Both the position numbers and the translations under genes were made by a program. DNA of 21,405 nucleotides. Origin: Vibrio sp. 10N.286.49.B1 (lineage in GTDB: Bacteria > Pseudomonadota > Gammaproteobacteria > Enterobacterales > Vibrionaceae). Below, piece after piece: positions 1-11,918 of this stretch (the stretch's first letter is position 1; each line of letters opens with the position of its first letter). The notes below the pieces were generated by a model. That model ran no database searches. It was not told where the DNA came from and saw nothing but the letters and a program-made list of their open reading frames with translations. The stretch is taken from positions 1 to 21,405 of the forward strand of contig NZ_MCUW01000041.1 in assembly GCF_002873335.1 (NCBI RefSeq), read 5' to 3'.

Positions 1-111
1 CAAACACCACTGTCTTATACCGCTTTTATTGAACAGCAAACTCGATCAGCATTAAGGTGACCCAGCTCTGGGTCAGAGCACAAACACTACTGACTTTATC
101 GCTTATAACAG
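1..111. repeat. Imperfect direct repeat pair, about 31-36 bp, 80 bp apart
   Basis: Positions 1-36 and 81-111 share the start CAAACAC(C/T)ACTG and then a related T/A-rich tail ending in AACAG. Between them is a 7-bp inverted repeat, GACCCAG / CTGGGTC, at 59-65 and 68-74. The function is unknown. The pair may continue left of the window. Confidence 0.3.
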
Positions 112-933: not shown

Positions 934-1125
934 TCATGAAAAATCACCATAGCGAATTCGATCCAAAATGCCTAGGACTGCATCTCTTCCTTCTGGCATT
1001 CGTAGCATTTCTACTGCTGTCAAACCATCAAAAAACCATTTAGGGGAATTTAGCCATTCATCAGCTAAGCCTTCTTCTTCAAATATCTCTAAAGCGGCTT
1101 TTCTCACTTCAGTTACACTATCCAT
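934..1125 (-). CDS. Stand-alone MbcA/ParS/Xre antitoxin toxin-binding domain (DUF2384)
   Basis: This 63-residue protein matches the C-terminal domain of MbcA/ParS/Xre-type antitoxins. It shows an early Ala-Leu-Glu-Ile-Phe helix, a Trp-Leu-x-Ser-Pro segment, a Gly-Leu-Thr-Ala-Val-Glu-Met-Leu stretch and the terminal Leu-x-x-Ile/Leu-Asp-Arg-Ile-x-x-Gly helix. In known family members this domain docks on the RES-type toxin, while a separate N-terminal helix-turn-helix binds DNA. That HTH half is missing here. AGG lies about five bases ahead of the ATG, so the start is credible. The gene follows the primase-helicase on the same strand after 42 bp, which include a small hairpin (1146-1162), so the two may be cotranscribed. 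No RES toxin is found downstream. It could be a decayed antitoxin or a free domain acting on another partner. Confidence 0.65.
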   Translation of the reverse strand: MDSVTEVRKAALEIFEEEGLADEWLNSPKWFFDGLTAVEMLRMPEGRDAVLGILDRIRYGDFS

Positions 1126-1167
1126 ATCCTATACCTCGAACTATTCAAACCGATTAGGTTTGGCTTG

Positions 1168-3504
1168 CTATATAAGCAAACCCTCGTCTGGAACCTCCAC
1201 AAAACCCAACGCTCTATAACCTTTATCTCTTTTCTTAAACATCCTAGACAGCATAGGGATTTTCGAGTCGACGTAGTCGATAACTTTAACTTCATCTTTC
1301 CCTTCAAACTCACGCTGTATTCGACCAACATACTGAATAAGTGAACCTTTCCAGGATACTGGTAGTGCTAATATTAGAGTATCTAGCCTGGGTAAGTCGA
1401 AACCCTCCCCGATAAACCTCCCAGTAGCAACAAGTACTTCGGTGGTTGCTAGTTTCTCCATGACGTCTGCTTGCTGCTTTTTTTTCATTGCACCGACAAG
1501 CACTTGATGTTTAAGTCCCGTATCATCAAGTAGCTTAGATATTATATTGGCATGCTCTCTTCGCTCTGTTAATACGATAGGGACTCTTCCTTTACCAACT
1601 TCATATTTAATGTCCTCAATAATGACCTTGTTACGTTCAGAGTGCAGCATCAACCAACGGTACACATCAGAAATATGAGGTTTGGGTTCATCCGAAATCA
1701 AACTTAGCGGCACATCAAATAACAAAGCTTTCTTTTCCAATCGCTGAACAAATCGAGATCTTTGGTCAGACTTGATGCTATGCCTGACCCTACCCGCTTG
1801 CATGAAGATAATAGGGTGATGTCCATCTCGCCTTTCTAAAGTAGCACTTATCCCAACAACAAATTTGGCATGCGACTCAGATAGAACTCGTTCAAATTGA
1901 GGTGCTGACAGATGATGACATTCATCGACTATGACTTGCCCATAGTCCTGAATCAGTTCATTGACACTATTATCACTCCTGTTGAACAAACTTTGATACG
2001 TCGCAATATCGATCTGCCCTGTTGGCTTTTTCTTGCTTCCAGTCCACACTCCAACATCAACCCCCAGAGCAAAAACCTTGAGTCTCTCTTGCCATTGTTC
2101 TACGAGCTGTTTGTTGTGAACTAACACTAACGTATTAACTTTTCTTTGGCATATGAGGCCAATGGCGGTAATCGTTTTGCCAAATGCTGTAGGCGCATGA
2201 AGTACGCCATTGTCATATTGAAGAAGTTTATCAACAGCTTTACGTTGCGCTGAACGCAGGGAACCAACAAATTTAATAGTGCCTAATAGCCGCCCTTCAA
2301 TCCTCTTGTCTTCTACCTGTAACGAAATTCCATTAGAGGAACAGATATCCTCCAAATCATCCAAGCACCCTCTTGGCAAACTCAAATAGCCGCTGTCTAT
2401 CTCCGCTAGACAAATGAACCGAGCAATTCCATTTGTCGATAAGCGCAACCCCTGGGCCTTGAAGAACTTTGGATTTGAGAAAGATGCGACTTTCTTTAAC
2501 TGGGCGATTAAAGGGTTAGGGAGACTAGACAACGGGATATAGAGTCGATTAGCAATAACCGCTTGCAACACTTCAGGGCAGCCTTCTATAGCGTTCCTAG
2601 TGGGTAGAGAGCGCTCCCAAGGGGCTTGCTGACAGATATCTGCCGATGTCTGCTCTTGATGTGTTCGATTAATTAAAAGTGCTTCGACTTTTACAGGCGC
2701 TACACGTTTTGTTGAAACCAGAGCAGCCCATTGATCGGCACAAGCAACGAATGATTGGTCAACAAATGTCGAATTACCACACGACCGTGATTGCTTTTGC
2801 AATGGCAGAGCTATCAAATTGCCAATACCTCCTACTGGAAGTACATCTTGGTTGGGAAAAAGCCTATCGTAAGACTCAAAAGATAAAACGCCATGAATTT
2901 TCATCGCTTCATCTAAGAGGAAAAAACCTAACTGACGAGCTAGTTTGGCTTCTATGGCTTGATCGAAGAAAATCCACACGTGTGCGCCATTCCCAGACCT
3001 TGAGCGCTCTAGTAGGCAATCAATTCCATTCTGTCGGCATGCATTGACATAAGCTATTGATGCTAATTGCCAGTCACTTTTGTCGAAATCAACGGCTAGT
3101 AACCAACATGTGTTGTTCGATAGCATTGGGTATAAACCAATGACTTCTTTTCCAGTTAAGTGATTATAGATCGCATCTTCATCTAAAGACTTGAACGCTT
3201 GGTTGGGACATTCTAAACATTTAGTCTTAGGTTTATTGCAGAGTCCTTGCTGCCATTCATTATGGCACGCCACTGCATAACCACTTCTCCCTTTATTGTT
3301 CTGCCAACGATGCGCATAACAATAGTCATTCCCCCTAAAGTAGGCCTTGAATAAAGCAACTTTTTGCCCTGGAGAATACTCATGTTGATCACCTGCCGTC
3401 GAGCTGGCGTTTTGAGCTAATAAAGACTGGCGGCGCTGCTCTAAATGGCTTAGCTCGACCCTTAGCTCTAAGATCTGTTGTTCAAGCCTTTGAAGCTCAT
3501 CCAT
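1168..3504 (-). CDS. Primase-helicase of the TOTE conflict system type (AEP primase plus SF2 helicase)
   Basis: The 778-residue protein has three parts. Residues 1-30 form a Glu/Leu-rich coiled coil. Residues about 45-265 are an archaeo-eukaryotic primase domain with a zinc cluster (Cys80, Cys89, Cys96, Cys99), the catalytic Asp139-Phe-Asp141, the Ser-Gly-Asn-Gly-Ala-His175 motif and the strongly conserved Tyr-Asp-Arg-Leu-Phe-Pro-Asn-Gln-Asp (212-220) and Gly-Asn-Leu-Ile-Ala-Leu-Pro-Leu-Gln (228-236) blocks. Residues about 415-740 are a superfamily 2 helicase: Walker A Ala-Pro-Thr-Ala-Phe-Gly-Lys-Thr (437-444), DECH (527-530), Ser-Ala-Thr (553-555) and Gln-Tyr-Val-Gly-Arg-Ile-Gln-Arg (724-731). 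All catalytic motifs are intact. Family proteins are thought to act against invading nucleic acid; the exact reaction here is unknown. It is divergent from the CoiA-like gene and upstream of the DUF2384 gene. GGGA about eight bases before the ATG supports the start. Confidence 0.85.
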   Translation of the reverse strand: MDELQRLEQQILELRVELSHLEQRRQSLLAQNASSTAGDQHEYSPGQKVALFKAYFRGNDYCYAHRWQNNKGRSGYAVACHNEWQQGLCNKPKTKCLECPNQAFKSLDEDAIYNHLTGKEVIGLYPMLSNNTCWLLAVDFDKSDWQLASIAYVNACRQNGIDCLLERSRSGNGAHVWIFFDQAIEAKLARQLGFFLLDEAMKIHGVLSFESYDRLFPNQDVLPVGGIGNLIALPLQKQSRSCGNSTFVDQSFVACADQWAALVSTKRVAPVKVEALLINRTHQEQTSADICQQAPWERSLPTRNAIEGCPEVLQAVIANRLYIPLSSLPNPLIAQLKKVASFSNPKFFKAQGLRLSTNGIARFICLAEIDSGYLSLPRGCLDDLEDICSSNGISLQVEDKRIEGRLLGTIKFVGSLRSAQRKAVDKLLQYDNGVLHAPTAFGKTITAIGLICQRKVNTLVLVHNKQLVEQWQERLKVFALGVDVGVWTGSKKKPTGQIDIATYQSLFNRSDNSVNELIQDYGQVIVDECHHLSAPQFERVLSESHAKFVVGISATLERRDGHHPIIFMQAGRVRHSIKSDQRSRFVQRLEKKALLFDVPLSLISDEPKPHISDVYRWLMLHSERNKVIIEDIKYEVGKGRVPIVLTERREHANIISKLLDDTGLKHQVLVGAMKKKQQADVMEKLATTEVLVATGRFIGEGFDLPRLDTLILALPVSWKGSLIQYVGRIQREFEGKDEVKVIDYVDSKIPMLSRMFKKRDKGYRALGFVEVPDEGLLI

Positions 3505-3594
3505 ATTTAGTCCCAGCGGTCGGTCCGACTACACAAGTCAGTGCGTATTAAAACATAAGAAACCACAAGCATTATTTTTAACTGTCTAACATAT

Positions 3595-3621
3595 TTGCCA
3601 AGCTTTCTAGCTTATTATGAT
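3595..3621 (+). promoter_or_regulatory. Weak candidate promoter for the CoiA-like gene
   Basis: TTGCCA (3595-3600) and TATGAT (3616-3621) resemble -35 and -10 boxes, but the spacer is 15 bp, shorter than ideal. A small AAGCT/AGCTT inverted repeat fills the spacer, so a regulator could bind there. It lies in the 151-bp gap shared with the divergent primase-helicase gene. Confidence 0.3.
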
Positions 3622-3655
3622 ACCAACACCCCAACAATTAACAGCATAACGTAAC

Positions 3656-4594
3656 ATGACAATTCAACACGTTCCTTTTGGCTTAAGAATCGAAGACCAT
3701 TCCTTTGTGGATGTCTGCGATGTCGCTCGCGGAAAAAAATGTGATTGTATTTGTCCGTCTTGTCACACTCCACTCATAGCCCGACAAGGAGAAGAGAAGC
3801 AGTGGCACTTTGCCCATGCAACTCGCAAAGTAGATAAAACCGATAAGGAGTGTGACTTTTCCTTCTTTGTTTCCGTCAGAATGATGGCAAGGCAAGTTAT
3901 CGAAACGGGTATTAGGATCGCTCTCCCAGAGTACAAGTGCACTGTAGCTCGTCAGGCTAAAGGAACCCACTTCAAAGAAGAATTTTTGGTAGCAAAACAA
4001 ACAACTATCGAACTAAAAGACGTACATAAGGAAGCAGCGTTTTCAAATTGCGTTGTCGACATTGTTGGTAAGGTTCAAGCCTTCTCTTTTGTCATATACT
4101 TTACCCACCCAAATCGCCCACTCCCTGCTAGTCTTCATGTCTCTGATAACCAACAAAGTGGTGTACTAGAAATTAAACTCGATGATACACACCACTTGTT
4201 CAAAGAAAATAGAGCTGGAACTAGGCAACTAGATAGGCTAAAGCTCTTTCTACAAAATGACCTGTCATCCAAGAGCTGGGTATTTCATCCACGAAAAGCA
4301 TCAATACAGAAAGCAGCATATCAACGTTTGAACTCGACTATCGCTAGCTATCAAGTCAATCGTCACTCAACAACTAGTCATTCTAGCCATGGAAGTCGTG
4401 TTTCCTATCAGCACAACGACCCTTGGCTTGCGCCAAGAAACAAACCGACAGCTCCACCGTCACCGTTCCCCAAAAGAACAGCTACATTCGAATGCATCAT
4501 GTGTAACTGCCAATGGCAAGCTTCATTACCAGGACAACCTACCTGCCCTAAATGTCATAACCACCTGTATGCTAGCGAGGTATCTTCGAGATAA
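3656..4594 (+). CDS. CoiA-like zinc-finger protein, possible nuclease
   Basis: The 312-residue protein opens like CoiA-family competence/nuclease proteins. A zinc finger is built from Cys33-x2-Cys36 and His51-x2-His54 in the context Cys-Pro-x-Cys ... Trp-His-Phe-Ala-His (more Cys at 29 and 31). In that family the finger precedes a PD-(D/E)xK-like nuclease core. Here Asp135 in Val-Val-Asp-Ile-Val could be the first acid, but the following strand (145-150) has no ExK. A Glu172-x-Lys174 pair further on is the only candidate, so activity is uncertain. A His/Ser-rich linker (about 236-255) and a Pro-rich stretch lead to a C-terminal zinc ribbon (Cys280, Cys283, Cys297, Cys300), which suggests nucleic-acid binding. 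It is divergent from the primase-helicase, and no strong ribosome site precedes the ATG. Restriction of incoming DNA is an inference. Confidence 0.65.
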   Translation: MTIQHVPFGLRIEDHSFVDVCDVARGKKCDCICPSCHTPLIARQGEEKQWHFAHATRKVDKTDKECDFSFFVSVRMMARQVIETGIRIALPEYKCTVARQAKGTHFKEEFLVAKQTTIELKDVHKEAAFSNCVVDIVGKVQAFSFVIYFTHPNRPLPASLHVSDNQQSGVLEIKLDDTHHLFKENRAGTRQLDRLKLFLQNDLSSKSWVFHPRKASIQKAAYQRLNSTIASYQVNRHSTTSHSSHGSRVSYQHNDPWLAPRNKPTAPPSPFPKRTATFECIMCNCQWQASLPGQPTCPKCHNHLYASEVSSR

Positions 4595-4621
4595 AGACAC
4601 ATCAAGTGTTCATTTTATTCC

Positions 4622-4660
4622 CCTGTTCATTTTTTATGAACAAACTAAAAAATGAACAGG
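4622..4660 (+). terminator. 15-bp perfect inverted repeat, likely terminator or operator
   Basis: The arms 4622-4636 and 4646-4660 are perfectly complementary around a 9-base loop and contain a T6 and an A6 run. The hairpin lies 28 bp after the CoiA-like gene, so it could end that transcript. It is also built from the half-site TGTTCA / TGAACA, which occurs four times at 4607, 4624, 4637 and 4653, so an operator role is also possible. Confidence 0.5.
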
Positions 4661-4735
4661 ATCTGATGTTCCCAGCTTTAGTTTCTCAAGGCTCAACGGG
4701 TATCTTTGCTCCCTATGTCTCACCATGTCATCCAA

Positions 4736-4837
4736 TATCCCTTTGTAGGGATATAACTCGTAAAATCCCCACAAGGGGATATGGTGGACTATATCCCCAC
4801 TAAGGGATATACTTTACCATATCCTCACTAGAGGATA
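4736..4837 (+). promoter_or_regulatory. Four HipB operators, 28-bp phased
   Basis: Four 18-bp palindromes occur at 4736-4753, 4764-4781, 4792-4809 and 4820-4837. Three match TATCC-N8-GGATA exactly and the second reads AATCC-N8-GGATA. This is the consensus established for E. coli HipB. Centres are exactly 28 bp apart (4744.5, 4772.5, 4800.5, 4828.5). They lie directly upstream of hipB, so the operon is expected to repress itself through HipB and the HipBA complex. Confidence 0.92.
4785..4813 (+). promoter_or_regulatory. Candidate hipBA promoter under operator 3
   Basis: TGGACT (4785-4790) and TATACT (4808-4813) form -35 and -10 boxes with a 17-bp spacer. The third HipB operator fills the spacer and overlaps the -10 box by two bases, so HipB binding would exclude RNA polymerase. 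Other -10-like hexamers exist at 4834 and 4844, so the start site is not certain. Confidence 0.5.
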
Positions 4838-4884
4838 ATGAGATATATAAAGTCGCACCTTAACTCTATCGAGGGTCGGAAGAA

Positions 4885-5133
4885 ATGATATATAGTCCAA
4901 AGCAACTCGCTGACATGATGCTCCTAATAAGGCAAAAGAACGGCTGGACTCAATCAGAGTTGGCCAAAAGGGTAGGCATAAAGCAAGCAACTATCTCAAA
5001 CTTCGAAAATAGTCCTGATAAGACAACACTTTCGACTTTCTTTAAACTTATTCAGGCAATGGAACTGACACTGAGCATCCAGGAAAAAGCACAAGTAAGT
5101 TCACAAGATAGCCAAGATGATGAGAACTGGTAA
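4885..5133 (+). CDS. hipB: HipB antitoxin and transcriptional repressor
   Basis: The 82-residue protein is close to E. coli HipB (88 residues). It has an Xre-type helix-turn-helix containing Gly-Trp-Thr-Gln-Ser-Glu-Leu-Ala-Lys and Gly-Ile-Lys-Gln-Ala-Thr-Ile-Ser-Asn-Phe-Glu-Asn (residues about 20-42), then helices ending in a short beta strand for dimer formation. As in E. coli, the tail is polar, probably disordered and ends in tryptophan. In the E. coli protein that tail is the degradation signal and contacts HipA. HipB neutralises HipA and represses the operon through the four upstream operators. GGAAG lies just before the ATG. The stop overlaps the hipA start by one base (TAATG), so translation is coupled. 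Confidence 0.93.
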   Translation: MIYSPKQLADMMLLIRQKNGWTQSELAKRVGIKQATISNFENSPDKTTLSTFFKLIQAMELTLSIQEKAQVSSQDSQDDENW

Positions 5134-6434
5134 TGCAAAAACTAAACGCATACATGAACGGAGAACTCGTAGGGACTCTCAATAAACAGAATAATGGTGC
5201 TCATACTTTTCAGTATGATAAGACCTGGGTAACCAGTGACAAGTCCCGACCACTATCATTGTCTCTAAAATTACAACTGCCACCTATAACTTCAGACTCA
5301 GTCATCAACTACTTCGACAACCTTTTACCTGATAGCCCAAAGGTGAGAGATAGGATCGTAGCTCGTTATAAAGCTTCATCTAAGCAGCCATTCGATCTTC
5401 TCAAAGAAGTTGGTAAAGATAGCGTCGGAGCTATTGCATTAATTTCTCCTGAACAACCTTACAAAAATGAACCACTCAATTACCAAGTCTTAGATGATAA
5501 AAAGTTGGATGCCGTGCTCTCAGCTTACAAATCTGATATCCCCCTCGGAATGGTTGAAGAAGAAGAAGATTTCAGAATATCAGTGGCTGGTGCTCAAGAA
5601 AAAACAGCACTCCTATTCGTTGATCAACAGTGGTGTATCCCCAAAGGTAATACTCCAACAACTCATATCATAAAACTACCAATTGGCGAAATACAGCAAG
5701 CAAACGCAACATTAGATCTTAAAGACAGTGTTGAAAATGAGTACCTTTGCATCGAGTTAGCTAAAGCACTAGGGTTTTCAGTTCCCAATGTCCACATGAT
5801 CAAAACTGATAACCTGAAAGCTTTAGCTGTAGAGCGATTCGATAGACGCTGGACTAAAGATAAAGCTAACTTACTCCGTCTACCTCAAGAAGACATGTGC
5901 CAAGTATTTGGTATGCCATCATCAATCAAGTACGAATCTCAAGGTGGCCCTGGTATTTCGGAAATCATGAAGCTAATCATGGGTTCAAGTAATGCTCTGG
6001 AAGATCAGTATAACTTCATGAGATTTCAAGTATTTCAGTGGGTTATAGGGGCAACCGATGGGCATGCAAAGAACTATTCTATTTATATTGAGAAGGGAGG
6101 GAGTTATCGTTTAACTCCATTCTACGATATTTTATCAGCATACCCGCTTCTGGGTGGTCGAGGCCTGAATATTAGAAAACTCAAGCTAGCAATGGGACTC
6201 AAAGCGACTAGGGGGAAAAAGTATGAAATTAACAAAATCTTACCTCGCCACTTTCTGGATACTGCTAAAGCAGTAAACTTCAGCCAAGATAAGATGCAAG
6301 AGATATTGAATGAACTGAAAGATGGATTCCCTGAAGCAATCTTACAAGTAAAAGCCAAGCTACCCGAAGATTTCCCTGAAAAGATTTCAGATTCGATTTT
6401 TGAAAATGCGACAAAGATACTTTCGAAGATTTAA
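5133..6434 (+). CDS. hipA: HipA serine/threonine kinase toxin
   Basis: The 433-residue protein aligns with E. coli HipA (440 residues), with the key residues at the same numbers. The activation-loop serine is Ser150 in Arg-Ile-Ser-Val-Ala-Gly-Ala-Gln-Glu-Lys-Thr, the catalytic Asp309 lies in Ala-Thr-Asp-Gly-His-Ala-Lys-Asn, and the metal-binding Asp332 is in Phe-Tyr-Asp. Gly22 and Asp291, the positions altered in the E. coli high-persistence allele hipA7, are wild type. In E. coli, HipA phosphorylates glutamyl-tRNA synthetase, halts translation and causes persistence, and autophosphorylation of Ser150 switches it off. The same role is expected here. The gene is second in the operon, overlapping hipB by one base. 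It is complete, with no frameshift, and looks functional. Confidence 0.95.
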   Translation: MQKLNAYMNGELVGTLNKQNNGAHTFQYDKTWVTSDKSRPLSLSLKLQLPPITSDSVINYFDNLLPDSPKVRDRIVARYKASSKQPFDLLKEVGKDSVGAIALISPEQPYKNEPLNYQVLDDKKLDAVLSAYKSDIPLGMVEEEEDFRISVAGAQEKTALLFVDQQWCIPKGNTPTTHIIKLPIGEIQQANATLDLKDSVENEYLCIELAKALGFSVPNVHMIKTDNLKALAVERFDRRWTKDKANLLRLPQEDMCQVFGMPSSIKYESQGGPGISEIMKLIMGSSNALEDQYNFMRFQVFQWVIGATDGHAKNYSIYIEKGGSYRLTPFYDILSAYPLLGGRGLNIRKLKLAMGLKATRGKKYEINKILPRHFLDTAKAVNFSQDKMQEILNELKDGFPEAILQVKAKLPEDFPEKISDSIFENATKILSKI

Positions 6435-6646
6435 TATTCAGAAAGTAAATTGATGCAATAAGCTATAGGGAGACTCCACTGACCAATAGAATATTTGGCT
6501 ATATCCAAATAAATATCTATAGCTATATTATATATAAAGACGGGGGTTCAGTTCCTTTTCAAGCAGGATTTTGATGTAACATCTTAAGTAACATCAAATT
6601 AGAACATTAACTCTAAAGCCTTATATAATGTAGATTGGTACAGCCA
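6435..6646. other. Non-coding island end with inverted repeats
   Basis: No gene is seen. TATTTGG / CCAAATA forms a 7-bp inverted repeat (about 6489-6508). TTTGATGT (6570-6577) is inverted as ACATCAAA (6591-6598) and overlaps a direct repeat of GTAACATC. Positions 6539-6555 resemble the T-arm part of ssrA (see findings). Such clustered repeats fit recombinase arm sites at an island end, which is an inference. Confidence 0.4.
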
Positions 6647-6683
6647 TTCAACTCCCGCCAGCTCCACCAAACGTTTGGAAAGG
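6647..6683 (+). repeat. att-like copy of the ssrA (tmRNA) 3' end
   Basis: Positions 6647-6669 equal the last 23 bases of gammaproteobacterial tmRNA, from TTCAACTCCCGCC to the CCA end, but the upstream tmRNA body is absent. It is therefore a displaced tail, the mark of integration into ssrA. It overlaps the 20-bp sequence CCACCAAACGTTTGGAAAGG (6664-6683), repeated exactly at 8763-8782, whose core CCAAACGTTTGG is a perfect palindrome. It marks the right end of one island and the left end of the next. Confidence 0.85.
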
Positions 6684-6712
6684 CGGTAAGTTATTGACTT
6701 ACCGCCTTTTTT
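6682..6712 (+). terminator. Rho-independent terminator after the first ssrA tail
   Basis: GGCGGTAAG (6682-6690) pairs with CTTACCGCC (6698-6706) around a 7-base loop, followed by six T residues (6707-6712). This is a textbook terminator in the direction of ssrA. It would end the tmRNA transcript if this att half became joined to the ssrA body. Confidence 0.92.
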
Positions 6713-6896
6713 GTCTTTATTTTTCGTTCGTGTGCCACTTGTACTAAAAATGCGCTATCTAAAGATATCCTCATCTGGTATTTGGCAGTTCCGCTATCAG
6801 ATTTCAAAGCCACATAGACTGCTTTTTGATGGTAGAAGATAGATCAAAGAGGCAACCAGCTAAACTCACACCAACAAATGCACTAGATAAGTACTA
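6713..6896. repeat. Island-end sequence repeated at about 8813-8960
   Basis: No gene is seen. The segment shares interrupted similarity with the DNA after the second ssrA tail. Both have ACTAAAA followed by TGCGCTATCTAA (about 6750 and 8870), then CTGG..AT.T, TTTCAAA and CTTTTTGA blocks in the same order. Together with the tails it forms a diverged direct repeat of roughly 200 bp. Confidence 0.5.
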
Positions 6897-8153
6897 TCAA
6901 ACCTGAAAATCCGTACTCAATTGCCTCCAATGTTGAATGAGAGCAATCTTGTGCTCATCTAGCATCGGTAACTCTTGTAGCTGTTCCAACCATTGAGTTC
7001 TCGCCACTTCAATTACATCCAAAAGGTGCGGCTTAATGGCAACCCAAGGTGCACCCGTTTTCTCTGACCATAATTTGAAGTTCTCCATCGTAATATCGAA
7101 CCACTGCTTGGTGCCCGCCATATTAAGAGCAAGGCTATCGTGTTCTATATATGGTGCGGTAAACACCACATCATAAAGCGGGGACAAGCGTGGAGATTGT
7201 CTATCGCCATAAATGAGCGTCCAGTTTTTTAAATGAGCGTCGCCATTACCAAGCAAGATGTTGATTAGCAACCTTCTTGCCATTTGTTGAATGTCCTTCA
7301 AACGCTCTGCGCTAGTTCGATAGAGCACGTTGCCGAGTTGCTCATAATTGACTCGTTGATACTTATCCGAGGGATAGAGGCCAAAGACCTGAGCAAAATC
7401 TTCTGTGTGAATACGACCTGCACCGCTGCGATCAAACCTCTTGATACCGTAAGCATATTGCTCATCTGGTAACCTAATACTCGGCAAGCCCTCCAGCTCA
7501 GTAAGATTTATTAATCGTACTTCTGGAATATCAGCCCCTGCAGCCTCAGCCAGCTTCATACAGGTATATTCGTTAACAGGTACGCCTTTGTGGACGGTCG
7601 ACGGCGTTTTGATAATCCAAATATCCTCTGAGATTTCCTGATCGATATGGTAACGACCATCCACATGAGATGACGAGAACTTCATCTGCACACCAGCTAA
7701 AGAGAACTTGGTATCAGCGTGTTTAACATCTATCTGCAGGGGCTCTGTCGACAAACGCTGCTCCAATGCCCAAACCGGCACATCGCCCGCTTTAATCGGC
7801 TTGGCAATGACCGCCCCCGGCAAGTTGGAGCCAAGATAGGCAAGAATTGAAAACTCATTATTGGTGTGGCAACGAAGCGCTTTAGCTGTCAATTCTCTCA
7901 ATATTCCCTCAGGCAAGAGGTTGGAGAGGACTGGAGGGATCTTATCGGTTCTAATCTGCGGCTTGTTCAAATAAGTGGGGTCAAGCATCTGCCTCAGAGT
8001 AAAAACAGGTCGAAGATGGTCAGGCATAGCGGTAAAATCAGGGTTGAAAGTCAGTATGTTTTTGCCACCAGCATAACGGGTTATCACAGCAACATCGATA
8101 CCATGAAGCTGAATCTTAAGGCCTTCAACCTTCTCTATCTGCTTACTCATCAT
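6897..8153 (-). CDS. HipA-family kinase, second and distinct type
   Basis: This 418-residue HipA-like kinase differs clearly from the HipA at 5133-6434. An N-terminal beta-rich coupling domain (about 10-120) precedes the kinase core. The candidate autophosphorylation serine is Ser151 in Lys-Phe-Ser-Leu-Ala-Gly-Val-Gln-Met-Lys. The catalytic loop is Gly-Asn-Gly-Asp305-Ala-His-Leu-Lys-Asn, and the metal aspartate is Asp328 in Leu-Tyr-Asp. All are intact, so an active kinase is expected. The target cannot be read from the sequence: some HipA homologues modify aminoacyl-tRNA synthetases other than GltX. The start codon overlaps the stop of the upstream HTH gene (ATGA), and a second in-frame ATG follows at once. 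It is the last gene of a two-gene operon that ends near the first ssrA tail. Confidence 0.88.
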   Translation of the reverse strand: MMSKQIEKVEGLKIQLHGIDVAVITRYAGGKNILTFNPDFTAMPDHLRPVFTLRQMLDPTYLNKPQIRTDKIPPVLSNLLPEGILRELTAKALRCHTNNEFSILAYLGSNLPGAVIAKPIKAGDVPVWALEQRLSTEPLQIDVKHADTKFSLAGVQMKFSSSHVDGRYHIDQEISEDIWIIKTPSTVHKGVPVNEYTCMKLAEAAGADIPEVRLINLTELEGLPSIRLPDEQYAYGIKRFDRSGAGRIHTEDFAQVFGLYPSDKYQRVNYEQLGNVLYRTSAERLKDIQQMARRLLINILLGNGDAHLKNWTLIYGDRQSPRLSPLYDVVFTAPYIEHDSLALNMAGTKQWFDITMENFKLWSEKTGAPWVAIKPHLLDVIEVARTQWLEQLQELPMLDEHKIALIQHWRQLSTDFQV

Positions 8154-8473
8154 TTATCCTCAGAACCAAACCAAAACCCAAGATCATCCTCATCGTCTTG
8201 CAGCGGGTCACTTTTCGGTACTTGGTTCAAACTTTTAAAAGTATCCTCTGTGAGAGCGTTATGCCCTTTGCTTTGCTTCGGTGAGATAGAAAGTTCCAAA
8301 TCAAGTCCTTCTAACACTCTAAGCAAGGTCGATAACTTCACATCGCTACCCGCTTCAATGCGCTGATACTGTTGCTGCTTCATGCCGATTCGCATGTACA
8401 TGTCTTTTTGCTCGATACCGAGTTTTCTGCGCTGCTCAGTGAGCAAGGTTGCGATTTCTTCTAAACTTTTCAT
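8150..8473 (-). CDS. HipB-like HTH antitoxin of the second HipA
   Basis: With the ATG at 8471-8473 the protein has 107 residues. This start is preferred over the in-frame ATG 39 bp upstream because GAGAAGA precedes it directly and the longer N-terminus does not look like an HTH protein. Residues about 5-60 form an Xre/Cro-type helix-turn-helix (Glu-Gln-Lys-Asp-Met, then Gln-Gln-Gln-Tyr-Gln-Arg-Ile-Glu-Ala-Gly). The C-terminal tail is long and acidic (Asp-Asp-Glu-Asp-Asp, Phe-Trp-Phe) and probably contacts the kinase. It overlaps the kinase gene by four bases. By analogy with HipB it should bind the four phased palindromes upstream and repress its own promoter. Confidence 0.85.
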   Translation of the reverse strand: MKSLEEIATLLTEQRRKLGIEQKDMYMRIGMKQQQYQRIEAGSDVKLSTLLRVLEGLDLELSISPKQSKGHNALTEDTFKSLNQVPKSDPLQDDEDDLGFWFGSEDK

Positions 8474-8485
8474 TCTTCTCACCAA

Positions 8486-8592
8486 ACAACCCAAAAGTTG
8501 TACCAAACACAATTAACAATATATTAGTTGTAGCGCATGTCAATAACAACTCTTAAGTTGTTAAAATGCCCACTAACAACTTAAGAGTTGTT
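8486..8592 (-). promoter_or_regulatory. Four operators of the second hipBA-like operon, 30-bp phased
   Basis: Four palindromes of form ACAAC-N6-GTTGT lie at 8486-8501, 8516-8531 (ACAAT variant), 8546-8561 and 8576-8591. The last two extend by one base each side to AACAAC...GTTGTT. Centres are exactly 30 bp apart (8493.5, 8523.5, 8553.5, 8583.5). The motif differs from the TATCC...GGATA sites of the first hipBA operon, so the two repressors should not cross-bind. Confidence 0.88.
8516..8543 (-). promoter_or_regulatory. Promoter of the second hipBA-like operon
   Basis: On the minus strand a perfect TTGACA (8543-8538) is followed after 16 bp by TATTGT (8521-8516). The -10 box lies inside the second operator and the -35 box abuts the third, so occupancy of the array would block the promoter. 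It lies 43 bp before the HTH start codon. Confidence 0.65.
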
Positions 8593-8746
8593 TAGTTAAT
8601 ATTTCTGTGAAGGTGAGGGATGCTAAGAAAAAACGCTTAATGATGAGAAAAAATGAGGTAACAAAAAAGAATAGGTACACCACTAGATACACCGCAAAAA
8701 ATCAAATCGATATTAATTTAATAAAAACAATCACATGAAAAACAGA

Positions 8747-8782
8747 TTCAACTTACGCCATCCCACCAAACGTTTGGAAAGG
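8747..8782 (+). repeat. Second, diverged att-like ssrA 3' end
   Basis: Positions 8747-8768 match the tmRNA tail with a few changes and one missing base (TTCAACTTACGCC then TCCCACCA). The 20 bases CCACCAAACGTTTGGAAAGG (8763-8782) are identical to 6664-6683. The changes would spoil T-arm pairing, so this copy is older or not under tmRNA selection. It bounds a 2.1-kb segment carrying only the second hipBA-like pair. Confidence 0.78.
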
Positions 8783-8812
8783 GCGATAACCCTTTGATTT
8801 ATCGCCCTTTTT
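8781..8812 (+). terminator. Rho-independent terminator after the second ssrA tail
   Basis: GGGCGATAA (8781-8789) pairs with TTATCGCCC (8799-8807), followed by five T residues. Its position relative to the ssrA tail matches the terminator at 6682-6712, but the stem sequence differs, so the terminator function is conserved rather than simply copied. Confidence 0.9.
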
Positions 8813-9053
8813 GTATTTATACATCTAGTTTTAGTCGTTTTGTAATGAACTTAGGTACTAAAACATGCGCTATCTAACCCTAAGTAGTACTGGAATCTAG
8901 TCGCTCCGGTTTCAAATCCCCGCTATCCACAGTCCTCTTTTTGAACATCGATTTGAAGAGCAAAAGCAAAAAACTCAACAAGCCGCCGTTTTGCACTACC
9001 GCTTGGTAGTAACGTTTTTCCATATATACGGCAACAACTTATCTCGTTGCCCT
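8813..9053. other. Non-coding sequence after the second att-like site
   Basis: No gene is seen. The first part repeats the DNA after the first ssrA tail in diverged form. A 6-bp hairpin GGCAAC / GTTGCC (9030-9035, 9046-9051) lies just after the psiE remnant on the minus strand and may be its former terminator, although only a weak T-rich stretch follows. Confidence 0.4.
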
Positions 9054-9152
9054 TTACTCATATTGCTGCTTGTTTCTGAGACCCACATACGGACAGTAAT
9101 GGTGCCCCACCCGAATAAACAGGGCTGCGGCTGCCAAAATAAAGGCAGCTGC
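9054..9152 (-). pseudogene. psiE 3'-end remnant
   Basis: Read on the minus strand, 32 codons and a TAA stop encode the C-terminus of a PsiE protein. About 22 of 32 residues agree with the end of the intact PsiE at 12751-13176, including Ala-Ala-Phe-Ile-Leu-Ala-Ala-Ala and Ile-Arg-Val-Gly-His-His-Tyr. DNA identity is only moderate, so this is not a recent copy. There is no start codon or N-terminal region: similarity stops about 36 bp from the end of the lyase gene, which uses the same reading frame. Confidence 0.85.
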
Positions 9153-9188
9153 ATAAAATCTAACGTTATATAAATAGGCAGTTTTAAC

Positions 9189-11885
9189 TTAACGCTCTAC
9201 ACGTTTAACAAGTCTGATTTCATCTAAATATCCCACGAGTTCATCACTTGGTTCACCAGAATAGCTTATTGCAAATTCATCTACCCGCACTTCAAAACTG
9301 TTGTCCGTGTACTGATTGTGTGCCATCAGTTGGTCGTTGGTATAATCATCGGTATTTACTTCCATCAGAGCAAATAATTCAAGCGTGTCATTGTCACCAG
9401 TATTGAAGTCTAACGTAACCTGGCGAAAACAGCTTTTTACGCTGCCCACATCTGCATCATCAAGTTCACTGACATGCGCACGTCTATCTGCAGCAATTGC
9501 TCCTTCATTAGGTTGGCGCAACCCAAAATGTAATGTGCTGATTGAATCGTCACCTTTACTATCGCAATAATAAACTGATGCCGTCATATCCGTATGCAGA
9601 GGTAAACCACTGACAACCTGACTGAGCCCCGGTTTTGATTCAAAATCATGAGATAATTCACTGGATTTATAACGAATTCTTGCAGAGCCATTTTCTCCTT
9701 CAGAATCATTAAACGCACTGTCTCCTGAACTTCCTACATCGCCATTACCACTGCTGCTACCTTCATATGTAGTCCAAACATCACTGCTTCCTGAATCTTG
9801 TCGCCAAAGCCCTAATTGAGGGTCGGCTACATTAGCAAATAGCTGGACACTTTTTGGCAAACCTAAAACCAACTCAGCGACACCACCACTACCGGAAACA
9901 AACTCTTTATTTACCCATGTATATTCATCTGCTTTTGCTTGTCCTTCTAACGTAACGCCATCACCGACTGCGATTCGATAAGCACCTTTAACAAACGCAG
10001 ACACGTTATAGCGAGTATTGGGCGCTAACGTCACGGCTTGTGACAGTTCACTATTAGCACCAACCATAATACTGCTGTTGCGAGAAAATGCGTCACTACC
10101 TTCGATTAACTGAACGTTTTGATATGACCACCCCTCTAAACCTTCATCAAATGAGGCATTATTTAATGGGGATTCAATCATGATGGCCACCGGCTTGGGT
10201 AACGTATAGTTTACCGGTCCAACATTCTCGTAGTTTAATGGTGCATAAATCGCTTCACTGGCGAATAGCTCATCCGCTCCTACAAGGGTTGTTTCACTGC
10301 GAACTTGACCATCTAGGTCAATATAAACCGCTTCAAACTCTCCTTTCTCATAATCACTGACTGCATCGAGGTTAGGCGAATCATTCGATAGACGATAAAC
10401 TCCGAACTGGTCTTTTTCTAATGCTGCTGAGATAAATTCAAACCCAGGCTCACCAACCCGTAAGCTATCACTATCTGCAAAAGCCTGCCCGTAGATAATA
10501 TTGCCAGTGATCTGTGAAGAAGAATCGAAGCCGCGCTCTGACTGAGTCAATACCGGGCCAATAGCAAGGTCTATTAGATTATTAGCGAGGAAAGCTTGTT
10601 TAGGGGCTGATGACTTTCCACCACCGTCGATATTGAGGCTGTTTACACTATCTACGATAGTATTATGCGCAATATGAACATTTGAGAATTCTTGGTACCC
10701 ATTGTCACCATCACCCGCACCATCAGATCCCATCATCACTATGCCGCCATGATGCGTGGTATCTTTGTAGCGAGCCCCTTCTATGTAGTTATTGGTTACC
10801 GTATGGTCACCATCAACTAGACGTATTCCGCCAGCTAACGGGTAGTCTTCTCCAAAGAAAAAGTTATTACTAATAGTCGCACCGCCACCATGCCGAGTAG
10901 TAACCGAACCATAACTGTTACGAATCGTATTGAAGCTAATCGTATTGTTTGTGCCTTTGTTTGACACAATCTCAGCTTCACCTTGAATATTCTCAAAAAG
11001 ATTACCGACAATGAATGAATCACTATCATAATGATGCGTATCACTTAGCCCTGTTCGTATTGCCTCATAGTTGTTATCGCTACTTTGTGCATACATTTGC
11101 CCCTTGGCAGGCGCTCGGTTCGCGATGTAGTTATTATAAACAATGATACCTTGTGCTAGTTCCGCAACCTTAGTCGCTTCATCCCAGCTGCTATCTACCC
11201 AACGGTTAAAAGAAATCATGGGGGATGCGGTGGTTTTACCGCTCAAGATACTATGATCTAGCCAATTGTTTTTTCCGTAGATATGAATCCACTCTCCCGA
11301 AGTCGAATCATCTGAACTAATACCTTGATCAGCATCCACATCGATAACAGCAATTTCAGTAATTCGGCAATGGTGACAAAGATCACCGGTACCAAAACGA
11401 GTGCTGATCAAATTGCTACTTGAGCTTGATGCTCCATTGAAAACAAACCCTTGCAGCTGAACGTAACTGCCACCCATAATAATTTTTGCCGACCCTATTA
11501 TTTCCACTTTCCCTGAATTTTGGGCGGCGACTTTAATGACATTGTCTTCGGTACCAACCCCACCAAAGGTAATCTCAAGATCGTTATAAGTCCCGTCAGC
11601 CAAGCAAAACGTAGTGCCTGCCTGCATATCTTTTGATACCGCGCTTTCTAACGCAGAAGTTGAGGTGAATACCTCGCTACAAATAACATCCGGAACGGAT
11701 AAAATAGCGGCAGGAAGAATATCGGCGATGACATCATGACTTTCACCTTCAGTCACTTCACCAGGAGGCTTGGGATCTACAGGAGGCGTACCGCCCGTCG
11801 TGCTGTCTCCAGTAGTATTAGAATCGCTATTACAACCTGCAAGTAATGTTGCGATGATCAAAAAACTAAGCTTACCCAACTTCAT
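9189..11885 (-). CDS. Lipoprotein alginate lyase, polysaccharide lyase family 6
   Basis: The 898-residue protein starts with a lipoprotein signal ending in Leu-Leu-Ala-Gly-Cys18, so it should be anchored in the outer membrane. A Thr/Gly/Pro linker (20-47) leads to a right-handed beta-helix (about 65-480). There Glu303, Glu305, Lys310 (Ser-Asn-Lys) and Arg331 (Arg-His-Gly) have the spacing of the calcium-binding and catalytic residues of PL6 / chondroitinase B enzymes. The usual reaction is beta-elimination of alginate. Residues about 570-898 look like two beta-sandwich carbohydrate-binding modules joined by a Ser/Gly-rich linker. The ATG at 11885 is preferred because TGGAGAG precedes it and the signal peptide starts there. 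An in-frame ATG 24 bp upstream would disturb the signal. The gene lies between a psiE remnant and intact psiE, suggesting acquisition. Confidence 0.85.
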   Translation of the reverse strand: MKLGKLSFLIIATLLAGCNSDSNTTGDSTTGGTPPVDPKPPGEVTEGESHDVIADILPAAILSVPDVICSEVFTSTSALESAVSKDMQAGTTFCLADGTYNDLEITFGGVGTEDNVIKVAAQNSGKVEIIGSAKIIMGGSYVQLQGFVFNGASSSSSNLISTRFGTGDLCHHCRITEIAVIDVDADQGISSDDSTSGEWIHIYGKNNWLDHSILSGKTTASPMISFNRWVDSSWDEATKVAELAQGIIVYNNYIANRAPAKGQMYAQSSDNNYEAIRTGLSDTHHYDSDSFIVGNLFENIQGEAEIVSNKGTNNTISFNTIRNSYGSVTTRHGGGATISNNFFFGEDYPLAGGIRLVDGDHTVTNNYIEGARYKDTTHHGGIVMMGSDGAGDGDNGYQEFSNVHIAHNTIVDSVNSLNIDGGGKSSAPKQAFLANNLIDLAIGPVLTQSERGFDSSSQITGNIIYGQAFADSDSLRVGEPGFEFISAALEKDQFGVYRLSNDSPNLDAVSDYEKGEFEAVYIDLDGQVRSETTLVGADELFASEAIYAPLNYENVGPVNYTLPKPVAIMIESPLNNASFDEGLEGWSYQNVQLIEGSDAFSRNSSIMVGANSELSQAVTLAPNTRYNVSAFVKGAYRIAVGDGVTLEGQAKADEYTWVNKEFVSGSGGVAELVLGLPKSVQLFANVADPQLGLWRQDSGSSDVWTTYEGSSSGNGDVGSSGDSAFNDSEGENGSARIRYKSSELSHDFESKPGLSQVVSGLPLHTDMTASVYYCDSKGDDSISTLHFGLRQPNEGAIAADRRAHVSELDDADVGSVKSCFRQVTLDFNTGDNDTLELFALMEVNTDDYTNDQLMAHNQYTDNSFEVRVDEFAISYSGEPSDELVGYLDEIRLVKRVER

Positions 11886-11918
11886 ATACTCTCCATGTAA
11901 ATATATCATCTTGTATTT

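Follow-up and report, generated by a model that had tools for sequence, protein, structure and literature searches.

What does the gene arrangement near one end of a Vibrio contig represent, in which a primase-helicase (PH) gene is flanked by a divergent gene for a CoiA-like protein and by a short gene for a stand-alone DUF2384 domain? The window analysed here is the whole contig C41 (NZ_MCUW01000041.1, 21,405 nt) of Vibrio sp. 10N.286.49.B1, whose genome of 5.1 Mb is assembled in 89 contigs. The original prediction, made from the letters alone, had taken the three genes together as a candidate defence system, a view that our results support in part. What can be defended is a conserved two-gene divergent module, PH plus the CoiA-like gene, in one clade of Vibrionaceae PHs, to which DUF2384 is added as a variable third gene. 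We tentatively read it as a DNA-conflict module that is carried by an island and acts on incoming or branched DNA, and not as a fixed three-gene system, a reading to which we give somewhat less than an even chance. The three open reading frames (ORFs) proved intact, as judged from ORF calls, Pfam, conserved motifs and the ratio of nonsynonymous to synonymous substitutions (dN/dS). By the Nei-Gojobori method, for the pairs with unsaturated dS (saturated pairs yield no value), this ratio was 0.055-0.167 for PH, 0.132-0.335 for the CoiA-like gene and 0.096-0.326 for DUF2384; these are therefore real genes and not chance ORFs, and the ratios place all three under purifying selection.

PH was found in 20 of 329 Vibrionaceae genomes (E<=1e-60), at 21 places, two of them truncated. 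A CoiA-like gene lies divergently beside it at eight of these places, in three genera (the window's own genome, G131, G279, G011, G295, G280, G027 and G107; in G011 the gene is split into two frames). The upstream side is covered at 12 of the 13 other places, and none of the 12 has the gene; at the remaining one, in G065, PH starts at the contig end, and a CoiA-like gene of 37% identity lies on another contig without PH within 1.5 kb. In a tree of 41 PHs, which leaves out those of G131 and G289 and most of the distant ones, the seven CoiA-bearing PHs form one clade (support 100/99) and no PH outside it has the gene; the PH of G131 is 99% identical to that of the window. Outside Vibrionaceae, the CoiA-like family profile matched ORFs at 0 of 76 PH loci, some of which end at contig ends, and a search for Pfam CoiA_N in 50 other PH genomes gave one match above the cut-off and five at E<=0.001, which ruled out that CoiA-like genes pair with PH everywhere. 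Since the pair is confined to one PH clade, it probably arose once and was then kept under purifying selection. Recurrent co-occurrence in other genomes, the test set beforehand, was thus observed for the pair within one clade, and for the full trio at only half of the eight loci.

The start codons of the two genes are 151 nt apart, and no neighbour other than the CoiA-like gene is retained at all eight loci, the rest changing from locus to locus. Moreover, a 27-bp block in the divergent region, TCTAACATATTTNNNAAGCNTTCTNGC, recurs with no more than one mismatch at each of the CoiA-PH loci, in a genome where a deletion removed nearly all of PH (G209) and beside a PH remnant in G254; with up to three mismatches allowed, it was found at none of the PH loci lacking a CoiA-like gene. 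Scans for sigma-70 promoters and terminators scored at or below chance. Independent transcription had been named in the prediction as a sign against a single system: owing to their divergent orientation, PH-DUF2384 and the CoiA-like gene are not one transcription unit, yet a conserved region that probably controls them is common to both.

At the DNA level, the window and G131 are 98-100% identical in PH and DUF2384, about 88% in the CoiA-like gene and mostly 96-99% in the neighbouring hipBA genes, whereas between G279 and G295 the CoiA-like genes hardly differ (dS 0.02) and the PHs clearly do (dS 0.82). These contrasting divergences indicate that the two genes were swapped separately yet kept adjacent. 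Five of the eight paired copies differ by a dS of only 0.02-0.11 despite lying in two genera, so that the well-separated lineages are about three. The separate histories of the two alleles could also mean that PH is an independent mobile gene in accretion zones rich in toxin-antitoxin (TA) genes, where the CoiA-like and DUF2384 genes would be kept by homologous allele exchange and not by function. The PH neighbours do vary (HipBA, HigBA, AbiEi/AbiEii-like, HicB, Fic), the CoiA-like gene is absent from the other PH loci examined, and CoiA-like genes and fragments exist without PH; such hitchhiking is nevertheless unlikely in our view, given that the CoiA-like gene, PH and the 27-bp block stay together at all eight loci while the rest changes. 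In our reading, the shared adjacency and the block reflect selection that maintains the pair together with its control region, and we infer a control role for the 151-bp divergent region and the block within it.

Some points limit this reading. A conserved recombination target could produce a similar picture of adjacency. Furthermore, the reverse view, in which a CoiA-like gene predicts PH, is weaker: relatives of the CoiA-like protein (E<=1e-10) occur in 43 of the 329 genomes, and just eight lie beside PH. Ten relatives are near full length with an identity of 55% or more: the eight paired ones, that of G209, whose neighbouring PH retains only about its first 53 matched residues, and that of G072, where no PH was found at E<=1e-60. 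Fragments of the gene (54-82% identity) are present in six genomes (G254, G259, G315, G202, G208 and G308); that of G254 adjoins an N-terminal remnant of PH, that of G259 adjoins hipBA, and in the surroundings of the fragments checked, which are all but that of G308, no PH was found except the G254 remnant. The remaining relatives are 24-49% identical, with no PH beside those checked.

PH itself is built of an AEP PrimPol domain (residues 47-275; Pfam AEP-TOTE, PF22548, E=1.2e-90) with a Cys cluster (C80, C89, C96, C99), and of an XPB/RadD-like helicase part of superfamily 2 (SF2; about residues 415-746; Pfam ResIII, DEAD and Helicase_C). Among 95 sequences, the window's included and only those longer than 700 aa (the truncated G107 and G289 copies were left out), the key residues of the motifs DFD, GxGxHxW, FPxQD, TAFGKT, DECHH and QYxGRxxR are 99-100% conserved, as are D139, D141, H175, W177, D220 and the four cysteines; Ala440 is 96% conserved. 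The closest solved relatives of the helicase half are RAD25/XPBII structures, and that of the AEP half is 7nqd, which we take to be a CRISPR-associated primase-polymerase (CAPP) and which aligns at the DxD, HxWIFF and FPxQ...GGxGNLIxxPL motifs. PH carries in one chain a PrimPol catalytic domain with the DxD metal site, followed by a helicase, which is how PMC8211822 describes the helicase type of CAPP class A (CAPP_A). By its domains PH is a non-CRISPR "CAPP-helicase", an already known architecture; the same paper gives the helicase fusion as the most prevalent architecture of non-CRISPR CAPPs, typically in mobile elements. CAPPs proper sit in a CRISPR-cas operon, whereas PH is paired with the CoiA-like gene, near TA genes. 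In fact, PADLOC 2.0.0, run on seven window proteins (934-8512), matched PH with its CRISPR-associated PrimPol model and gave weak helicase-type matches (some to Cas3 models), with no cas operon; none of its models matched the CoiA-like or DUF2384 protein at E<=1, and by full gene set the locus matches no anti-phage defence system catalogued there. An Rfam scan of the window gave no match, no further search being aimed at CRISPR arrays. In the literature on PrimPols and CAPPs that we searched, no demonstrated function was met for the non-CRISPR PrimPol-helicase architecture. The label "TOTE-type" given to PH in the prediction holds for the AEP domain, which belongs to the Pfam family named after TOTE, but not for its surroundings: TOTE conflict systems are outlined in PMC12458937 as TPR, OB, TBP and Effector, and no TPR, OB/cold-shock or TBP match was found by Pfam among eight window proteins (934-11909), the contig ending 934 bp beyond the DUF2384 gene.

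The CoiA-like protein carries at its N-terminus a CoiA_N zinc ribbon (PF25164; E=1.5e-8, 34.4 bits against a cut-off of 26.3), matched at E<=1 in 68/68 members of the family set A3, which was drawn from the 120 listed of 278 homologues. At the C-terminus a second, zinc-ribbon-like set of cysteines (C280, C283, C297, C300) is conserved in at least 99% of 113 homologues, and the two zinc modules that had been predicted for this divergent gene are thus present. The description of the protein as nuclease-like is probably right for the fold and doubtful for the active site. An AlphaFold2 model (pLDDT 86.7) suggests that the central part probably has a PD-(D/E)xK nuclease fold, and in a multiple alignment with five CoiA_nuc proteins E126 and D135 are in register with the Glu and Asp of CoiA_nuc; hhalign links the two families only across the N-terminal zinc ribbon, which leaves the multiple alignment as the basis of the core register. 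The ExQ of CoiA_nuc is replaced by Tyr-Phe-Thr, and Tyr148 stands at the place of the catalytic Glu in 112 of 113 relatives, which makes a canonical nuclease role doubtful. CoiA_nuc (PF06054) has no Pfam match in the window protein at E<=1, and it is absent among the best 25 of the 79 Pfam families listed for the 68 members of A3; the lack of this match together with Tyr for Glu ruled out an ordinary CoiA nuclease. With CoiA (PF25164 + PF06054), outlined in PMC1189080 as a PD-(D/E)xK competence factor, the protein therefore shares the N-terminal zinc ribbon, the probable fold and the E126/D135 register, and differs, besides the points just given, in its extra C-terminal part. Nine loci in viral contigs match the CoiA-like family.

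The profile of A3 searched against PDB sequences gave a best E of only 0.44; an archaeal XPB-Bax1 entry is among the structural matches of the model. The likeness to archaeal Bax1-XPB (6p4w, 6p4o) consists in an XPB-like helicase with a partner of probable nuclease fold, and is one of resemblance and not of demonstrated sequence relationship; PH adds a PrimPol, and the CoiA-like protein lacks the standard catalytic Glu. This match, together with XPB/RAD25 and RadD being the named helicases closest to PH, could point to a DNA repair or replication-restart accessory, joining excision repair of the XPB/Bax1 kind to repriming and serving the host instead of being aimed at foreign DNA, and human PrimPol is described in PMC8961649 as repriming stalled replication. 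A housekeeping repair function would be expected to be spread more evenly than PH, which is patchy (20/329 genomes) and borne by islands and plasmids, and we consider this explanation quite unlikely.

The DUF2384 gene starts 42 nt past the PH stop codon on the same strand, and its 63-aa product matches Xre_MbcA_ParS_C (E=4.1e-10, residues 10-60) with no Pfam match to a helix-turn-helix (HTH) domain, in agreement with its description as a stand-alone domain. By this match it is the toxin-binding C-terminal half of an Xre antitoxin with the HTH half absent. It has this domain in common with RES-Xre antitoxins (6gw6, 8gug, 6d0h), and differs from them in the missing HTH half and in that no match to a RES toxin was found in its own genome, so that a local RES-Xre pair was ruled out. 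One match was obtained for the protein in a protein database. The gene follows PH at four of the eight CoiA-PH loci (the window's own, G131, G011 and G280), which excludes a fixed trio, and it is also present in G209. Its carriers are scattered across the PH clade, which makes an ancestral presence probable, followed by loss or replacement in G279, G295, G027 and G107. In G295, G027 and G107 a 175-aa gene follows PH, and its G295 member resembles DUF6088/AbiEi below the Pfam cut-offs. Elsewhere, longer DUF2384-domain proteins lie within about 1 kb of PH at two loci (L054 and L112); on an Acinetobacter lwoffii plasmid such a protein is encoded directly upstream of PH, with an HTH gene and hipA downstream; and 34 of 50 other PH genomes encode a DUF2384 domain at some place. 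As a separate observation, the CoiA-like and DUF2384 genes of G209 (L130/L205) are still open after the deletion of PH.

As regards its spread, PH is widespread in genomes and plasmids and patchy in Vibrionaceae. In a search of one genome per species, from which the best 80 stretches were taken on, at least 572 of 585 candidate stretches, from several phyla, held relatives; PH was found on 98 of 72,556 plasmid records (E<=1e-50), and at seven loci in viral contigs, while 11 of 50,697 phage records matched at E<=1e-20, none of them over 80% of PH. The PHs of G205 (L040) and of an Acinetobacter baumannii plasmid (L153) are nearly identical, so that PH probably moved recently between the orders of Vibrionaceae and Acinetobacter.

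The placement of the locus in an ssrA-type island, also claimed in the original prediction, is not visible in the window, where no tmRNA or tRNA was found and a tmRNA was accordingly rejected, and is supported by synteny. A tmRNA lies 1.1-24.3 kb from PH at all six CoiA-PH loci with both on one contig (1.1 kb in G279, 7.1 in G295, 13.0 in G280, 18.6 in G011, 20.5 in G107 and 24.3 in G131); in the window's own genome and G027 the two are on different contigs. The CoiA-like loci of G072 and G209 are 0.2 and 23 kb from tmRNA. Of the ten other PH places that allow the comparison, out of 13, five have a tmRNA at a distance of 13-55 kb and five have none nearby. In G222 (C1:748867-749801) two tandem tmRNA matches are present at the ssrA region.

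The island setting also bears on the gene content around PH. Among 118 representatives of the neighbours of the 20 Vibrionaceae PH loci (set A5, taken from 121 cluster representatives that are 200 aa or longer), type I methylase models matched four and SWI2/SNF2 defence-helicase models (ZorD, DpdE and DrmD, probably the same proteins) matched three, all at E<=1e-15. The control set A2, made of 140 mechanically called ORFs 4.5-6.9 kb from PH at 40 loci, gave two type I methylases and no ZorD among the 25 matches listed. A2 shares loci with A5 and differs from it in make-up, and the excess of defence genes is therefore only suggestive; a defence role fits this setting. On the other hand, PH surroundings are rich in recombinases: Phage_integrase matched 13 of the 147 ORFs near PH and 2 of the 140 far ones, and 8 of the 20 Vibrionaceae PH loci, five of them CoiA-PH, have within 6 kb a gene of serine-recombinase type (identified by Pfam in one Vibrio member and by clustering in the others). 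Such surroundings, and AEP-helicase fusions being described as typical of mobile elements in PMC5862659 and PMC8211822, are what a replication or maintenance module would lead one to expect, with PH priming and unwinding either the island after excision or another resident element, DNA ends being handled by the CoiA-like protein and addiction provided by TA-like genes. The PH helicase is, however, of XPB/RadD-like SF2 type, in contrast to the hexameric helicases of replication, a plasmid that carries PH also encodes a RepA of its own at a distance of about 2 kb, and no recombinase is fixed beside PH in Vibrionaceae, all of which leave maintenance on the unlikely side. Besides, at 12 mainly alphaproteobacterial loci (L062, L074, L075, L076, L078, L082, L084, L086, L093, L107, L111 and L117) PH is followed by one to three opposite-strand genes of a single cluster, which look like tandem tyrosine recombinases from a Pfam tally and an annotated Paracoccus plasmid.

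TA genes are a further recurrent company of PH. Near ORFs (147, from 40 of the 45 loci whose flanks were of sufficient length, the final five in order being left out) included DUF6088 (3), HicB (3), AbiEii (2), HipA_C (2), Fic (2) and ParE_toxin (2), and none of these six families appeared among the far ORFs, the tallies being the best 25 of 97 families (near) and of 175 (far); HTH_3 did not differ (3 against 4). Core genes are part of the far set, so the enrichment may be a property of islands at large, where TA genes are common; these tallies do not separate a PH-TA linkage from that background. In G236, in G205 and on the A. baumannii plasmid, PH is immediately preceded by HigBA, encoded on the same strand. 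Several of ten annotated plasmid regions (nine with PH) have TA genes near PH, and those of Paracoccus, Pantoea and E. coli have none by annotation. At four loci (L029, L032, L033 and L035), whose PHs form one lineage in the tree, the space between PH and the divergently oriented hipB contains two HipB-type operators with one mismatch each, spaced 28 bp apart and falling about 75-132 bp upstream of PH (expected about 0.12-0.14 at each locus from mononucleotide shuffles), so that HipB may control PH in this lineage. The window has four such operators, TATCC-N8-GGATA, which we take to be the HipB consensus, one with one mismatch and 28 bp apart, against a chance mean of 0.54 in shuffles, 1/100 of which reached four. 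They stand between the CoiA-like gene and hipB, with none at up to 260 bp upstream of PH, and control of the window's PH by them was rejected.

These cues (the operators in the hipB-PH region, HigBA upstream, Xre-type antitoxins beside PH) suggest that PH is often under TA-type repressors, and they could be joined in a wider account. PH would belong, as its enzyme, to a broad defence family absent from the catalogues, with expression linked to TA repressors and switched on when phage takeover drains a labile antitoxin; in one Vibrionaceae clade the CoiA-like protein, with its nuclease fold and altered catalytic site, would have taken the repressor slot, as both the DNA-targeting partner of PH in the manner of Bax1-XPB and the regulator at the 27-bp block; and the lone DUF2384 would be a relic or accessory of the older TA-linked state. 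Taken jointly, these parts make a distinctly improbable whole.

The features of the window are collected in Table 1. The contig begins within an 81-bp tandem array (window 1-104), likely the reason for the contig break, of which G131 has a longer copy (L023 12001-12692) besides a 191-bp array (L023 13568-15504). The hipBA genes that the prediction had noted next to the locus are indeed directly downstream of the CoiA-like gene, as also in G131, and constitute a separate neighbouring TA module. The second hipBA-type pair occurs near hipBA in G131 and G259 as well, and at 9189-11909 the window encodes a large protein with a chondroitinase B domain (E=7e-52, Pfam) and, by eye, a lipoprotein-like start.

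Table 1. Positions of the genes and sites discussed, in window coordinates.
Feature	Position	Strand	Remarks
Primase-helicase (PH)	1168-3504	minus	778 aa; Pfam, PADLOC, NCBIfam
CoiA-like protein	3656-4594	plus	312 aa; Pfam, 113 homologues, AlphaFold2 model
Stand-alone DUF2384 (Xre/MbcA/ParS toxin-binding domain)	934-1125	minus	63 aa
Divergent region between PH and CoiA-like gene	3505-3655	no strand	151 bp; 27-bp block at 3585-3611
Four HipB-type operators before hipBA	4736-4837	no strand	neighbour, outside the PH/CoiA-like pair
hipB	4885-5133	plus	downstream neighbour of CoiA-like gene
hipA	5133-6434	plus	hipBA = 4885-6434
Second hipBA-type pair	6897-8512	convergent	HipA 418 aa + HipB-like 120 aa

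Returning to the conflict module that we tentatively favour, we regard a role against foreign DNA as a likely candidate. At the centre of the module would stand the divergent pair of PH and the CoiA-like gene, carried by a mobile island at ssrA. The CoiA-like protein would use its zinc ribbons and its nuclease-shaped, altered core to bind free or branched DNA, such as single-stranded DNA from transformation or conjugation, or replication intermediates of a phage or plasmid, and would direct PH to it; PH would then unwind the DNA and prime or copy the single strands, spoiling them for recombination or replication, much as in the archaeal partnership of Bax1 with XPB, with a PrimPol added. DUF2384 would be an accessory; as no RES gene was found in its own genome, its simplest role would be to neutralise RES-type toxins of rival elements. 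A case likened by description and not by sequence, in which the two enzymes are separate genes and not a fusion, is that of Ppol-Hel of Thermus ICETh2, a primase-polymerase and helicase on a mobile element outlined in PMC7693054 as a barrier to incoming DNA; it suggests that such enzymes can affect DNA uptake. The Ppol phenotype was later tied to addAB mutations, as outlined in PMC9751324, which is a warning for any PH knockout.

A literature search of titles and abstract starts gave, among the entries listed, no description of PH, CoiA-like and DUF2384 in combination. Non-CRISPR PrimPol-helicases are common on islands and plasmids, and a lineage in which one and the same partner has been retained in three genera and despite allele exchange offers a concrete and testable pair. 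If the CoiA-like protein does target PH to foreign or branched DNA, competence-type nucleases, XPB-like helicases and PrimPols would be joined in one mechanism, and a use would be shown for a nuclease fold without the standard catalytic residue.

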